64,000 nucleotides of DNA from the NCBI RefSeq assembly GCF_902833085.1, contig NZ_CADFEB010000005.1:434001-498000 (forward strand), given 5' to 3'. Numbering within the stretch: position 1 is the first letter of the stretch; the number at the start of each line of letters is the position of its first letter. Both the position numbers and the translations under genes were made by a program. Source of the stretch: Burkholderia ubonensis (GTDB taxonomy: Bacteria; Pseudomonadota; Gammaproteobacteria; Burkholderiales; Burkholderiaceae). This document shows, in pieces, positions 25,988-40,846 of the stretch. Under the pieces are notes generated by a model, which worked only from the letters and a program-made list of their open reading frames with translations, ran no database searches and was not told the origin of the DNA.

Positions 25988-26266
25988 TCAGCGCTTGTAC
26001 AGTTCGCGGACGGCGTCCTCGATGTGCTGGCGCAGCAAGTGACGCTCCTCGGGCGTCATGTGCCCGTCGCGGCGGCGCTGTTCGAGATCGGGAGGCACGG
26101 CGGAGCGGGCAACGGCATCGGCACGGTCGGCCTGCTGCGCCGCCTTGCCGCGGGGCAGCTTGCGCGACGAAGCGCCCGGCTCGGGGCGTTGCGCATATGC
26201 GAAGTTCGACGCACACGGACCGGCGAGCGCGATCGTCAGCATCAGTGCAATCCGGGCAGATCGCAT
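25988..26266 (-). CDS. Small secreted protein, function unknown
   Basis: 92 aa with a Sec signal peptide ('MRSARIALMLTIALAGPCAS..AYA'). The mature part is basic then acidic, with 'LPRGKAAQQADR' and the C-terminal helix 'MTPEERHLLRQHIEDAVRELYKR' cut short here to its ends 'MTPEERHLLRQ' and 'AVRELYKR'. The 'DGHMTPEERHLLRQ' motif recurs in small Burkholderia periplasmic proteins. A longer frame starts upstream but the signal peptide sets this ATG. It lies 128 bases upstream of DUF1800 on the same strand. Confidence 0.7.
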   Translation of the reverse strand: MRSARIALMLTIALAGPCASNFAYAQRPEPGASSRKLPRGKAAQQADRADAVARSAVPPDLEQRRRDGHMTPEERHLLRQHIEDAVRELYKR

Positions 26267-26407
26267 GACCGTCCTCGCTTCTTTGGTCGATTTGTTCCCT
26301 ACGTCACGCGGCAACCGGCTACCTCTGGTACTTGAAAAACCCTGCGGAAATCGGGCGTGCAAACCATGAAAGATTAAGTGCAGCGAGTATCCACCGAATT
26401 TCGTCTT

Positions 26408-36310: not shown

Positions 36311-36370
36311 CCGTTTCCCGCCACGCCGGCTCGCGTGGGCGGGCCGGTTCACTCCCCCATCCGCCAGGCC

Positions 36371-37387
36371 ATGTCGACATCACAACAGGGCACCGCCCAC
36401 ACGATCGACGGCGAGCCGATCCCGACGCTCGACGAAATCGCCGCGCAGCACTTCGCGCTGTCGCCATGGGTTTCGCGCACGCCGGTGTTCGAGCGCGCCG
36501 ACCTGCCTTCGCTCGAAGGCACGCACGTCAACTTCAAGTTCGAGCTGCTGCAGGCCAGCGGCAGCTTCAAGGCGCGCGGCGCGTTCACGCACCTGCTCGC
36601 GCTCGACGAGGCGCGCCGCAATGCCGGGGTCACCTGCGTGTCGGCCGGCAACCACGCGGCGGCGGTCGCGTATGCGGCGATGCGGCTCGGCAGCAGCGCG
36701 AAGGTCGTGATGTTCCATACCGCGAGCCCGACGCGCATCGCGCAATGCAAGCAGTACCGCGCGGAGGTCGTGCTGGCGGCGAGCGCGTCGCAGGCGTTCG
36801 ATCTCGTGCGCCGGATCGAGGCCGAGGAAGGCCGCTTCTTCATCCATCCGTTCAATGGCTATCACACGATCCTCGGCACCGCGACGCTCGGCTACGAATG
36901 GGCGACCCAGACGCCCGACCTCGACGCGGTGATCGTGCCGATCGGCGGCGGCGGGCTCGCGGCCGGCGTGTCGACCGCGCTGCGGCTCGCGAATCCGCGC
37001 GTGCACGTGTATGGCGTCGAGCCTGACGGCGCCGACGCGATGAGCCGCAGCTTCGCGGCCAACCACACGGTCAAGATGGCCGCGATGCACACGATCGCCG
37101 ATTCGCTGATGGCGCCGCACACCGAGGAATACAGCTACCAGCTGTGCCGCCGTCACATCGACAGCATCGTCACCGTCTCCGACGACGCGCTGCGCACGGC
37201 GATGCTGTACCTGTTCTCGCACCTGAAGGTCGCCGTCGAGCCGGCCTGCGCGGCGGCGATGGCCGCCCTGCTCGGCCCGCTGCGCGAAACGCTGCAGGGC
37301 AAGCGGGTCGGCGTGCTGCTGTCGGGCACCAACACCGATCCGGTCACGCTCGGCATGCACCTCGCGCACGCAAAGCTGCTGCGCTGA
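36371..37387 (+). CDS. PLP-dependent threonine/serine (hydroxyaspartate) ammonia-lyase
   Basis: 338 aa fold-type II PLP enzyme. The Lys that binds PLP is in 'ASGSFKARGAF' near residue 63. Also present are the substrate loop 'VSAGNHAAAVAYAA' and the phosphate-binding glycine loop 'VPIGGGGLAAG'. There is no C-terminal regulatory (ACT) domain, so it resembles the catabolic threonine dehydratase / threo-3-hydroxyaspartate lyase group rather than biosynthetic IlvA. The ATG at 'STSQQGTAHTIDG' is chosen over one 36 bases upstream. Confidence 0.88.
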   Translation: MSTSQQGTAHTIDGEPIPTLDEIAAQHFALSPWVSRTPVFERADLPSLEGTHVNFKFELLQASGSFKARGAFTHLLALDEARRNAGVTCVSAGNHAAAVAYAAMRLGSSAKVVMFHTASPTRIAQCKQYRAEVVLAASASQAFDLVRRIEAEEGRFFIHPFNGYHTILGTATLGYEWATQTPDLDAVIVPIGGGGLAAGVSTALRLANPRVHVYGVEPDGADAMSRSFAANHTVKMAAMHTIADSLMAPHTEEYSYQLCRRHIDSIVTVSDDALRTAMLYLFSHLKVAVEPACAAAMAALLGPLRETLQGKRVGVLLSGTNTDPVTLGMHLAHAKLLR

Positions 37388-37399
37388 CGCCGCGCGGGG

Positions 37400-37434
37400 T
37401 TATCCACGGTTCGTGTTGAAGAGCCTGTTGAAAA
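37400..37434 (+). repeat. 35-bp DnaA-box-like unit, copy 1
   Basis: Starts TTATCCACG, has TGTTGA at offset 14 and ends TGTTGAAAA (37426-37434). The end is an imperfect inverted copy of the start. Confidence 0.75.
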
Positions 37435-37533
37435 GTTTCTGGAAACTGCGCCAACGCGTTGATCGGACAGGGCTTTCCCCGCGCGATGCGGTTTGCGGCA
37501 GCGGCCGTGCGCGGCCCGTCGCGCAGACTAGGG

Positions 37534-37568
37534 TTATCCCCAGTTTTTGTTGACAGGACTGTGGAGAA
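37534..37568 (+). repeat. 35-bp DnaA-box-like unit, copy 2
   Basis: Starts TTATCCCCA, has TGTTGACA at offset 14 and ends TGTGGAGAA (37560-37568). It begins 134 bases after copy 1. Confidence 0.75.
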
Positions 37569-37665
37569 CTCACCGACAAGCGCCCCAAGCCATTGTTTTC
37601 ATTAAACAAACAGATATCGCCCCCGGGCATGCCGCCGATTGGGCAACGTTCGCCGTCACCGCCGG

Positions 37666-37700
37666 TTATCCACAATTTCTGTTGACAGGCATGTTGATAA
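37666..37700 (+). repeat. 35-bp DnaA-box-like unit, copy 3
   Basis: Starts with the perfect DnaA box TTATCCACA, has TGTTGACA at offset 14 and ends TGTTGATAA (37692-37700). It begins 132 bases after copy 2. Confidence 0.78.
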
Positions 37701-37796
37701 GGGCGGGATCGGCGCGCCAAGTTGTTGATGCGCAAGGGTTCGTGCGGCGCGCCCGCGACGCGGGCCGGCGGCGGCGGCACGCCCCTCCTTCATCGC

Positions 37797-37874: not shown

Positions 37875-40397
37875 TCAGGGCTTGTTGCTCTCGAACATGT
37901 CCATGATCTGCTGCTTCTCCTGCGCGGTCACGGGCGGCGGCGCCAGGCCCGCCGCGCCGGCCGAGCCGAGCGCGTCGTTCGCGCTCATCGCATTGGCCGC
38001 CGGGTTGATGTCGACGCTCGCGACGAAGCCGGCGCCCGGCGTGCGATCCGCGTAGTACAGCTCGCCGTCGATCGTCGTCAGCCCGTCGGGCATCGGCATC
38101 GGCTGCTCGGGCACGCCCTGCAGCGCGGTGCGCATGTAGCCCACCCAGATCGGCAGCGCGAGCTGCGCGCCGAATTCGCGGCTGCCGAGGCTCTTCGGCT
38201 GGTCGAAACCCATCCACGCGACCGCGACGAGCGACTGCTGATAGCCGGCGAACCAGCCGTCCTTCGCGTCGTTGGTCGTACCCGTCTTGCCCTGCAGGTC
38301 GCCGCGACCCAGCACGTTGGAGCCGGCGCCCGTACCGGCCGTCGCGACCGTGTGCAGCAGGCTGTTCATCACGTACGCGTTGCGGCCTTCGATCGTGCGC
38401 GGCGCGGTGCCGCCGGCGATCACCGGCTGCGCCTTCTGCAGCGGCTGGCCGCGCGCGTCGTCGACTTCGGCGATCAGGTACGGATCGACCTTGTAGCCGC
38501 CGTTCGCGAACACCGCGTAGCCGGTCGCGAGCTGCAGCGGCGTGACGAGCCCCGCGCCGAGCGCCATCGGCAGGTACGGCGGCGTCTTCGCCGGATCGAA
38601 GCCGAAGCGCTGCGTCACGTACTCTTGCGCATACTGCGTGCCGATCGACGCGAGAATGCGGATCGACACGAGGTTCTTCGAACGCTGCAGGCCGGTGCGC
38701 ATCGACATCGGGCCGTCCGGCTGGTCGTCGTCCTTCGGCTCCCACGCGGTGCCGCCCGGCACGCTCGGCGGGAAATACAGCGGTGCGTCGTTGATGATCG
38801 TCGCCGGCCCGAGCCCCTTGTCGAGCGACGCCGAATAGACGAACGGCTTGAACGACGAGCCCGGCTGCCGCCACGCCTGCGTCACGTGGTTGAACTTGCT
38901 CTTGTTGTAGTCGAAGCCGCCGACGAGCGAGCGGATCGCGCCGTCCTGCGGTGCGATCGCGACGAGCGCGCCCTCGACCTGCGGCAGCTGCACGATCTGC
39001 CAGCCCGTCTTCGCCTCCTTCAGCACGCGCACGATCGAGCCGGGCTTGATCTTCAGCGCGGCGTTCGCGCGCGGCCCGAGCGCCGCCGCGACGAAGCGCA
39101 GCCCGCTCGCGCCGATCGTCGTGGTCGCGCCGCCGACGAACTGCACCTCGACTGCGTTCGGCGCGGCGGCCAGCACCACCGCCGACTGCAGGTCGCCGTT
39201 GTCCGGGTGGTCGGCGAGCGCGTCGTCGATCGCCTCGTCGCGGTCGTCGCCGGCCGCCGGCAGCGTGATGAAGCCTTCCGGCCCGCGGTAGCCGTGGCGG
39301 CGCTCGTAATCGAGAATGCCGCGCCGCACCGCCTGGTACGCCGCTTCCTGGTCCGCCGCATTGATCGTCGTCGTGACCGTCAGGCCTCGCGTATACGTCT
39401 CGTCCTTGTACTGCGCGTACATCATCTGCCGCACCATCTCGGCGACGTACTCGGCATGCACCGCGTACTGGTTGCCCGGGGTGCGCACGTGGATCTCTTC
39501 CTTGATCGCCTGGTCGTACTGCTGCTGCGTGATGTAGCCGACCTCGCGCATCCGCTTCAGGATGTATTCCTGGCGCACCTTCGCGCGCTTCGGGTTGACG
39601 ACCGGGTTGTACGCGGACGGCGCCTTCGGCAGGCCCGCCAGCATCGCGGCTTCCGCCAGCGTGATGTCCTTCAGGTCCTTGCCGAAGTAGACCCGCGCGG
39701 CCGCGGCGAAACCGTACGCGCGCTGGCCGAGGTAGATCTGGTTCATGTACAGCTCGAGGATCTGGTCCTTCGTCAGGGCCTTCTCGATCTTGTACGCGAG
39801 CAGCATTTCGTAGATCTTGCGCGTGTAGGTCTTCTCGCTCGACAGGAAGAAGTTGCGCGCGACCTGCATCGTGATCGTGCTCGCGCCCTGGCGCGCGCCG
39901 CCGTGCATCAGGTCGGCGACGCCGGCGCGCAGGATGCCGAGGAAGTCGACGCCGCCGTGTTCGTAGAAGCGGTAGTCCTCGATCGCGAGCACCGCCTTCT
40001 TCATCACGTCGGGAATCTCCTGGAAGCGCACGAGGCTGCGGCGCTCCTCGCCGAATTCGCCGATCAGCACGTGATCGGCCGAGTAGACGCGCAGCGGCAC
40101 CTTCGGCTGGTAGTTCGTCAGCGCATCGAGCGACGGCAGCTGCGGCGCCATCACGACGAGCGCATAGCCCACGATCAGCGCGCCGACGACGGCCAGCGTG
40201 GCGAACAGGCCGACGAACCACAGCGCGACGCGCGAGCGGAACGAGCGGCGGCCCCCGCCACCGTCGTCATGCGACCCGCCGCGGTGCGCATCGCGGTCGT
40301 CGTCATCGGTGTAATAGGCCCCCGCGGGCGAACGGCGCAGCGTGTAGTGAGGTTCGTTCCTGGCGGGAGAAGAAGGCGGTCGTTTGATAATTGGCAT
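37875..40397 (-). CDS. mrcA: Penicillin-binding protein 1A (bifunctional transglycosylase/transpeptidase)
   Basis: 840 aa class A PBP of the inner membrane that polymerises and cross-links peptidoglycan. A basic and Asp-rich cytoplasmic tail leads to a membrane segment at about residues 55-80. The GT51 domain shows 'EDYRFYEHGGVDFLG' (catalytic Glu), 'GASTITMQVARNFFL' and 'KILELYMNQIYLG'-like sequence. The transpeptidase has the SxxK Ser in 'PGSSFKPFVY' near residue 515 and the KTG motif in 'LQGKTGTTND'. The ATG before 'PIIKRPPSSP' is used; a GC-rich upstream extension is open but unlikely. Confidence 0.96.
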   Translation of the reverse strand: MPIIKRPPSSPARNEPHYTLRRSPAGAYYTDDDDRDAHRGGSHDDGGGGRRSFRSRVALWFVGLFATLAVVGALIVGYALVVMAPQLPSLDALTNYQPKVPLRVYSADHVLIGEFGEERRSLVRFQEIPDVMKKAVLAIEDYRFYEHGGVDFLGILRAGVADLMHGGARQGASTITMQVARNFFLSSEKTYTRKIYEMLLAYKIEKALTKDQILELYMNQIYLGQRAYGFAAAARVYFGKDLKDITLAEAAMLAGLPKAPSAYNPVVNPKRAKVRQEYILKRMREVGYITQQQYDQAIKEEIHVRTPGNQYAVHAEYVAEMVRQMMYAQYKDETYTRGLTVTTTINAADQEAAYQAVRRGILDYERRHGYRGPEGFITLPAAGDDRDEAIDDALADHPDNGDLQSAVVLAAAPNAVEVQFVGGATTTIGASGLRFVAAALGPRANAALKIKPGSIVRVLKEAKTGWQIVQLPQVEGALVAIAPQDGAIRSLVGGFDYNKSKFNHVTQAWRQPGSSFKPFVYSASLDKGLGPATIINDAPLYFPPSVPGGTAWEPKDDDQPDGPMSMRTGLQRSKNLVSIRILASIGTQYAQEYVTQRFGFDPAKTPPYLPMALGAGLVTPLQLATGYAVFANGGYKVDPYLIAEVDDARGQPLQKAQPVIAGGTAPRTIEGRNAYVMNSLLHTVATAGTGAGSNVLGRGDLQGKTGTTNDAKDGWFAGYQQSLVAVAWMGFDQPKSLGSREFGAQLALPIWVGYMRTALQGVPEQPMPMPDGLTTIDGELYYADRTPGAGFVASVDINPAANAMSANDALGSAGAAGLAPPPVTAQEKQQIMDMFESNKP

Positions 40398-40846
40398 GTC
40401 GGAATGGCGGGCGCGCATTGCGCCCTCGGACGCATGCGGAATGCAAGCGGATGAATCGAGAGAGAGTGCATCGTGACACATTCGTCACGTCGACAGACCG
40501 CGTCGCGCGGCGATCCGTTCCCGCGACGTGACAGCGCATTTTAATGAAATCAATCGATTGGCTTCGCGATTTTTTGTAAAAATTCCCGCGCCGCGGCGCC
40601 GCGCGCGTCTTTTTGCCCGCCTGCCCGGCCTATCATGAACACGAAACCCCGCGCGCACGAGCTTTCAATCATGAAAGACTCGGCGCGCGGTTTTCCGGCC
40701 CGGAATTCGCATCGCTTGAACTTGCGCGTTTAAGCCGTATTTAAGTGATCCGGTGGTGTAATATCCGCCGGCAATCGCGGGCCGGAACCGGCACCGCCGA
40801 GGGCCACGCCGCCACTGCGCGGCGCCTTTTACACACGGAGGATTTC
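40398..40846. other. Divergent intergenic region, mrcA / pspA-like
   Basis: 449 bases without a gene between divergent starts. It holds a long hairpin with a T-run (40649-40694, annotated). The stretch 40,540-40,610 is AT-rich, with a palindromic AATCGATT. A TAATAT at 40758 could be the -10 of the pspA-like gene. No sigma54-type site was seen. Confidence 0.55.
40649..40694 (+). terminator. Long hairpin followed by TTTT in a divergent gap
   Basis: Three stacked stems (CCGCGCGC/GCGCGCGG, CGAG/CTCG, CTTTCA/TGAAAG) with one bulged A on each arm and an ATCA loop total 18 bp. TTTT follows on the plus strand. No protein gene lies upstream on that strand for it to terminate. Confidence 0.6.

Follow-up and report, generated by a model that had tools for sequence, protein, structure and literature searches.

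Introduction

In Escherichia coli, two ADP-DnaA molecules bound head to head on boxes I and II of a DARS site release their ADP with the help of box III, and DARS2 is activated by IHF and Fis, as described in the available text of three papers (PMC8682772, PMC10380432, PMC4245941). What is known of DARS function comes from E. coli, for which the papers, in the portions available, describe two single sites: DARS1, in the bioD-uvrB gap, and DARS2, in the rppH-ygdT gap near mutH. Conserved DARS-like sequences occur in many proteobacteria according to an available passage of PMC10380432 that cites earlier work, and the accessible part of PMC6090056 names only the E. coli and Vibrio cholerae DARS. 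Two other systems invite comparison with the locus reported here. One is datA, which likewise places DnaA boxes and an IHF site in a gene gap, and the other is crtS of V. cholerae, a short site that links the replication of two chromosomes (PMC4948915, available text).

PMC4948915 also justifies applying the E. coli DnaA box to Burkholderia cenocepacia, on the ground that the box-reading DnaA residues are identical. The paper maps clusters of DnaA boxes onto the B. cenocepacia chromosomes; the term DARS is absent from its main text, and the available passages do not describe the arrays reported here. No report of Burkholderia DARS sites was found among titles and abstract openings of the open literature, a scope with subscription papers largely outside it. 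Here we describe an array of DnaA-box units in Burkholderia ubonensis, within a stretch of 64,000 nucleotides that was analysed as a whole and is called the window. Judged from sequence, the element would be of a known kind, and its arrayed, IHF-registered form on two chromosomes appears to be new.

Results

The three 35-bp units of the array (Table 1) start 134 and 132 bases apart and share one layout, with boxes at offsets 0, 14 and 26, box I forward and boxes II and III reverse. Units of this length and spacing had been proposed in a first-pass annotation of the window, and the proposal is borne out by a pattern search (up to 3 mismatches) that returned exactly three matches in the window and none in any of 100 dinucleotide shuffles. 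Of the eight DnaA boxes in the window that have one mismatch or none, five lie inside the array; the shuffles average 2.25 such boxes. Boxes I and III of the window units depart from the DnaA box consensus by 0-1 mismatch. Box II departs from TTWTNCACA by 2-3 mismatches in the window units, by 3-4 in nine further units on contig C11, and by 0-1 in the E. coli DARS cores.

Table 1. Features of the array and its flanks in the window
Feature	Position	Strand	Sequence	Remarks
PLP-dependent enzyme (PALP family), left neighbour	36335..37387	+		ends before array
Candidate DARS-type core, unit 1	37400..37434	+		pattern search, DARS-core scan
Unit 1 box I	37400-37408		TTATCCACG	
Unit 1 box II	37414-37422		TGTTGAAGA	
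Unit 1 box III	37426-37434		TGTTGAAAA	
IHF-like site, unit 1	37452..37464	+	CAACGCGTTGATC	2 mismatches to TAAnnnnTTGATW
Candidate DARS-type core, unit 2	37534..37568	+		pattern search, DARS-core scan
Unit 2 box I	37534-37542		TTATCCCCA	
Unit 2 box II	37548-37556		TGTTGACAG	
Unit 2 box III	37560-37568		TGTGGAGAA	
IHF-like site, unit 2	37586..37598	+	CAAGCCATTGTTT	2 mismatches to TAAnnnnTTGATW
Candidate DARS-type core, unit 3	37666..37700	+		pattern search, DARS-core scan
Unit 3 box I	37666-37674		TTATCCACA	perfect
Unit 3 box II	37680-37688		TGTTGACAG	
Unit 3 box III	37692-37700		TGTTGATAA	
IHF-like site, unit 3	37718..37730	+	CAAGTTGTTGATG	2 mismatches to TAAnnnnTTGATW
mrcA-like penicillin-binding protein, right neighbour	37875..40481	-		ends past array, convergent

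The array occupies a gap of 487 bases between two convergent gene ends, and control of mrcA, which the annotation had also suggested, is therefore unlikely and was rejected: mrcA is read leftward and ends at 37875, the PLP enzyme is read rightward and ends at 37387, and searches of the window array found neither a sigma-70-like promoter nor a terminator-like site. Elsewhere in the window, positions 26160-26380 match the Burkholderia small RNA family BTH_s19.

For comparison we used the E. coli K-12 stretches that hold DARS1 and DARS2, the DARS2 core being located by a primer printed in the available part of PMC4585315. Both cores consist of a forward box and reverse boxes at +14 and +26, the geometry of the window units, in which boxes I and II stand head to head and box III lies beside box II. 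In ungapped scans of all window positions on both strands, the three units were the window's top three matches to either core. With DARS1 they gave 26, 23 and 21 identities of 35 (26 with unit 3) and with DARS2 24, 24 and 20, the next best window position reaching 19 in both scans; the two E. coli cores share 24 of 35 with each other. Thirteen columns are invariant across 17 aligned cores that include both from E. coli. DARS1 is also intergenic, but unlike the arrays it has one core and a perfect box II, and lacks an IHF-like site at +52. DARS2 depends on IHF (PMC10380432, PMC8682772, available text), and the arrays carry IHF-like sites; it differs in having one full core, in needing Fis and in the place of its IHF-like matches, which have one mismatch and lie at +93 and +109, with none at +52. 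No 0/14/26 triple is present in the E. coli datA region, whose best candidate has 4 mismatches in box I.

Each window core is followed at +52 to +64 by the IHF-like sequence CAAnnnnTTG(A/T)T (3/3), scored against the IHF consensus quoted in the available text of PMC8682772; the background on the corresponding strand of the window is 25 matches in 63,988 positions. Among 127 chromosome-2 units from 15 genomes, 125 have an IHF-like site (up to 2 mismatches) at +52. Forward matches at other offsets number only 4, and reverse matches fall at +1 (13), at +49 (12) and elsewhere (2). With 2 mismatches or fewer allowed, the chromosome-1 count is 9 of 26 units, the three of the window among them; the other 17 fail, and the four of these that were inspected have 3. 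A composite pattern of core plus IHF site, with the intervening gap free to vary from 14 to 23 bases, was searched in 399 genomes of the order: all 20 exact matches had a gap of 18, and the reversed pattern gave none. These matches come from 4 genomes in 3 genera and an exact match is absent from the other 395, so the strict composite appears to be confined to Burkholderia and near relatives.

The spacers had been called unrelated in the first-pass annotation, which does not hold for the IHF-like site at a common offset after each core, but it is true that they are less conserved than the units. In the comparison of the window with locus L128, unit identities are 89, 89 and 83% and spacer identities 71, 61 and 68%, with shuffled sequence at 55-61%; against the close relative L032, the window's units match at 100% and its spacers at 82-95%. 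Spacers as conserved as units would have spoken against an array, and the comparison thus leaves the array reading standing. In an alignment of 14 one-unit genomes (a 15th, L026, was left out because its gap is short), the unit stands out as an almost continuous block of conservation, with the IHF-like tract after it.

At the thresholds used, the genome holds 15 sites with the 0/14/26 geometry. The first-pass annotation saw no further unit in the window, which is correct for the window but does not extend to the genome: contig C11 has nine units in one cluster over about 7.6 kb, C9 has one, and C4 and C7 each have a single core. C11 and C9 would belong to chromosome 2, judging from complete relatives. 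The C9 unit (C9:111338; L012:3339-3373) has near-perfect DnaA boxes. About 2.4 kb away is a parA gene that stands next to parB and a Rep3 initiator, a gene set of the chromosome-2 origin type; iteron cores occur in the region of the unit, and among the matches listed a unit of this type recurs in most genomes of the genus. The C4 and C7 cores (C4:305056, C7:162996) share the geometry of the arrays and differ from them in being single and having a perfect box II; an IHF-like site at +52 was found in none of the C4, C7 and C9 cores. The C7 core (L160:2497-2531) lies 30 bp upstream of a gyrB/parE-family gene.

Units of the array type thus stand in two clusters, alongside single cores at three other places (C9, C4 and C7), and are not scattered at random through the genome; a randomly dispersed repeat is unsupported for them. 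Random scatter, too, would have told against the first-pass proposal. A piece of oriC was likewise rejected: no unit lies within 5 kb around dnaA in this genome, and neither dnaA nor rpmH lies within about 1.5 kb in any of 29 order-level loci (tblastn, E <=1e-4), a check that covers near distances only and in which one match (G046) is near a contig end. On C11, seven of the nine units (L013:5036-7925) bracket a class A beta-lactamase/LysR-regulator gene pair, four 3' of the former gene and three 3' of the latter. Most chromosome-2 cores have CCTGCGCAT immediately after them (L013:5198-5206 and equivalents), a sequence that the window units lack.

Across the genus, the array pattern gave 7-12 matches in all 41 genomes, our own included (control 0). 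In G011, G016, G017, G022 and G024, near-complete genomes with more than two contigs, it fell on two contigs among the matches listed. A pattern with a consensus box II found a C4-type core in 40/41 and a C7-type core in 38/41, types that were assigned by manual sorting of the rows (control 0/41), and a further such core in 6/41, on a third replicon in G016 and G022. Consensus-box-II single cores are thus also present, and the arrays are an additional class beside them, multi-copy, IHF-linked and degenerate in box II, and not the sole DARS-like sites.

Within the order, the core pattern was found in 77 of 150 genomes, from 56 of 94 genera (reversed control 1/150). Widening the gap between boxes I and II by 2 bp reduced the count to 1/150, equal to that of its own reversed control. 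This fall from 77 to 1 is the strongest evidence that the geometry itself, and not mere clustering of DnaA boxes, has probably been selected.

The same two genes enclose the chromosome-1 array site in 18 of the 31 loci searched for both; 15 of the 18 have one unit, L049 has two, and L032 and L128 have three as in the window. Outside the genus, one locus (G204, L143) has its unit close to a weak match to mrcA (50% over 60 residues). In one of the one-unit genomes a DUF3574 gene stands between the unit and mrcA (L033:1514-2044), 13 others being alike in the alignment; the window gap has no room for this gene.

Discussion

The units are, in our favoured reading, a DARS-type element at which ADP on DnaA is replaced by ATP; this reading seems to us probable, though by no means secure. 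Reactivation is favoured in view of the mechanism described for E. coli DARS, the identity in B. cenocepacia of the DnaA residues that read the box, and the presence of DnaA and Hda in the genome. DnaA would occupy boxes I and II head to head, box II being inverted, with box III alongside, and IHF would bend the DNA at a fixed distance, 17 bp downstream of the core. Under this strain the ADP-DnaA pair would then lose ADP, and the released apo-DnaA could rebind ATP and start replication, so that the capacity for reactivation would follow the copy number of the array loci as forks pass. The arrays would in this way probably help to time chromosome copying. Geometry, conservation, IHF-like register and distribution are what the analysis itself supplies; we infer binding of DnaA and IHF, release of ADP and an effect on initiation. 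The earlier proposal of a DnaA-box array for replication control agrees in kind with the geometry and conservation, and needs to be made more specific, the core being of the DARS form that is absent from the datA region. The core is conserved above its surroundings across species, as expected of a DARS, and the IHF-like consensus near it recalls DARS2, at a different place from that in E. coli.

The degenerate box II and the presence of better single cores leave room for a different job of the arrays. The genuine DARS may be those single cores whose box II is perfect (C4, C7 and the one by the chromosome-2 origin), with the arrays acting, for example, as datA does, where IHF and DnaA promote ATP hydrolysis on DnaA and so inactivate it, while the single consensus cores reactivate. 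That datA function needs DnaA boxes 2 and 3 and the IHF site at a set spacing (PMC4585315, available text) fits array units that pair boxes with an IHF-like site, which the C4, C7 and C9 cores do not have at +52. We nonetheless regard it as unlikely, with the triple in both DARS cores and not in datA, and with the IHF site flanked by boxes in datA but outside the triple in the arrays. Plain titration, in which the arrays only soak up DnaA, would account for DnaA-box clusters at fixed loci on two chromosomes, but would require neither the 0/14/26 geometry, nor a box II that is degenerate yet conserved, nor an IHF-like site in register, and is in our judgement distinctly improbable.

A role in transcription or as RNA, whether a DnaA-controlled promoter, a terminator or a 3'-end hairpin, draws on the inverted repeat formed by boxes I and III and on the location of the array at gene ends, and transcriptional control is conceivable for the C7 core, upstream of its gyrB/parE-family gene. 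The promoter and terminator scan of the window array was negative, however, and pairing between boxes I and III is 83.7% against 83.2% in shuffles, of which 191/500 reach 83.7%. Two pairs show changes on both sides, a number reached by 18/500 shuffles. An RNA hairpin or terminator is thus unsupported by scan and pairing test, and we hold such a role to be very unlikely. For a licence site of the crtS kind, bound by the chromosome-2 initiator (Rep), the chance seems slighter than for any of these, even though the sites are on chromosome 1 of a two-chromosome genome and an analogous link has been raised for B. cenocepacia (PMC4948915, available text). crtS acts via that initiator, whereas the array units resemble DnaA boxes and the arrays hold no iteron-like sequence: the iteron core taken from the accessible part of PMC4948915 occurs with 0 mismatches in the chromosome-2 origin region L086 and with at least 4 in either array locus. 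Similar units also lie on chromosome 2 itself.

If the DARS-type reading is true, this compact, repeated DARS-plus-IHF module, carried on two chromosomes of one cell beside single consensus cores, would reveal how the level of DnaA is set in a bacterium whose genome is divided, and the degenerate box II and fixed IHF register would offer natural variants for testing DARS function. A bolder and rather doubtful extension is that IHF-linked DARS arrays, a small one late on chromosome 1 and a large one half-way along a chromosome-2 arm, couple both chromosomes through DnaA recharging: forks would double them, and ATP-DnaA for the next oriC1 start would report copying progress. Such coupling would be the DnaA-based equivalent of crtS, directed from chromosome 2 to chromosome 1. 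In 11/12 genomes, the distance from dnaA to the chromosome-1 array site is 75-83% of that to the opposite point, and the chromosome-2 array lies 48-63% along the arm in all 7 genomes computed, with the origin-near single unit taken as the mark of the origin. Skew sampling of one chromosome (G017) agrees in placing the chromosome-2 array mid-arm, and a terminus element was rejected on this result. C4-type cores lie at 18-20% and C7-type cores at 48-60% of the chromosome-1 arm (8/8 genomes computed). Array position by itself is weak evidence, because gene order is common to the genus. In G019 (C1, L045), the one genome of the twelve outside 75-83%, the chromosome-1 site is at 35% of the arm, perhaps as a result of rearrangement.
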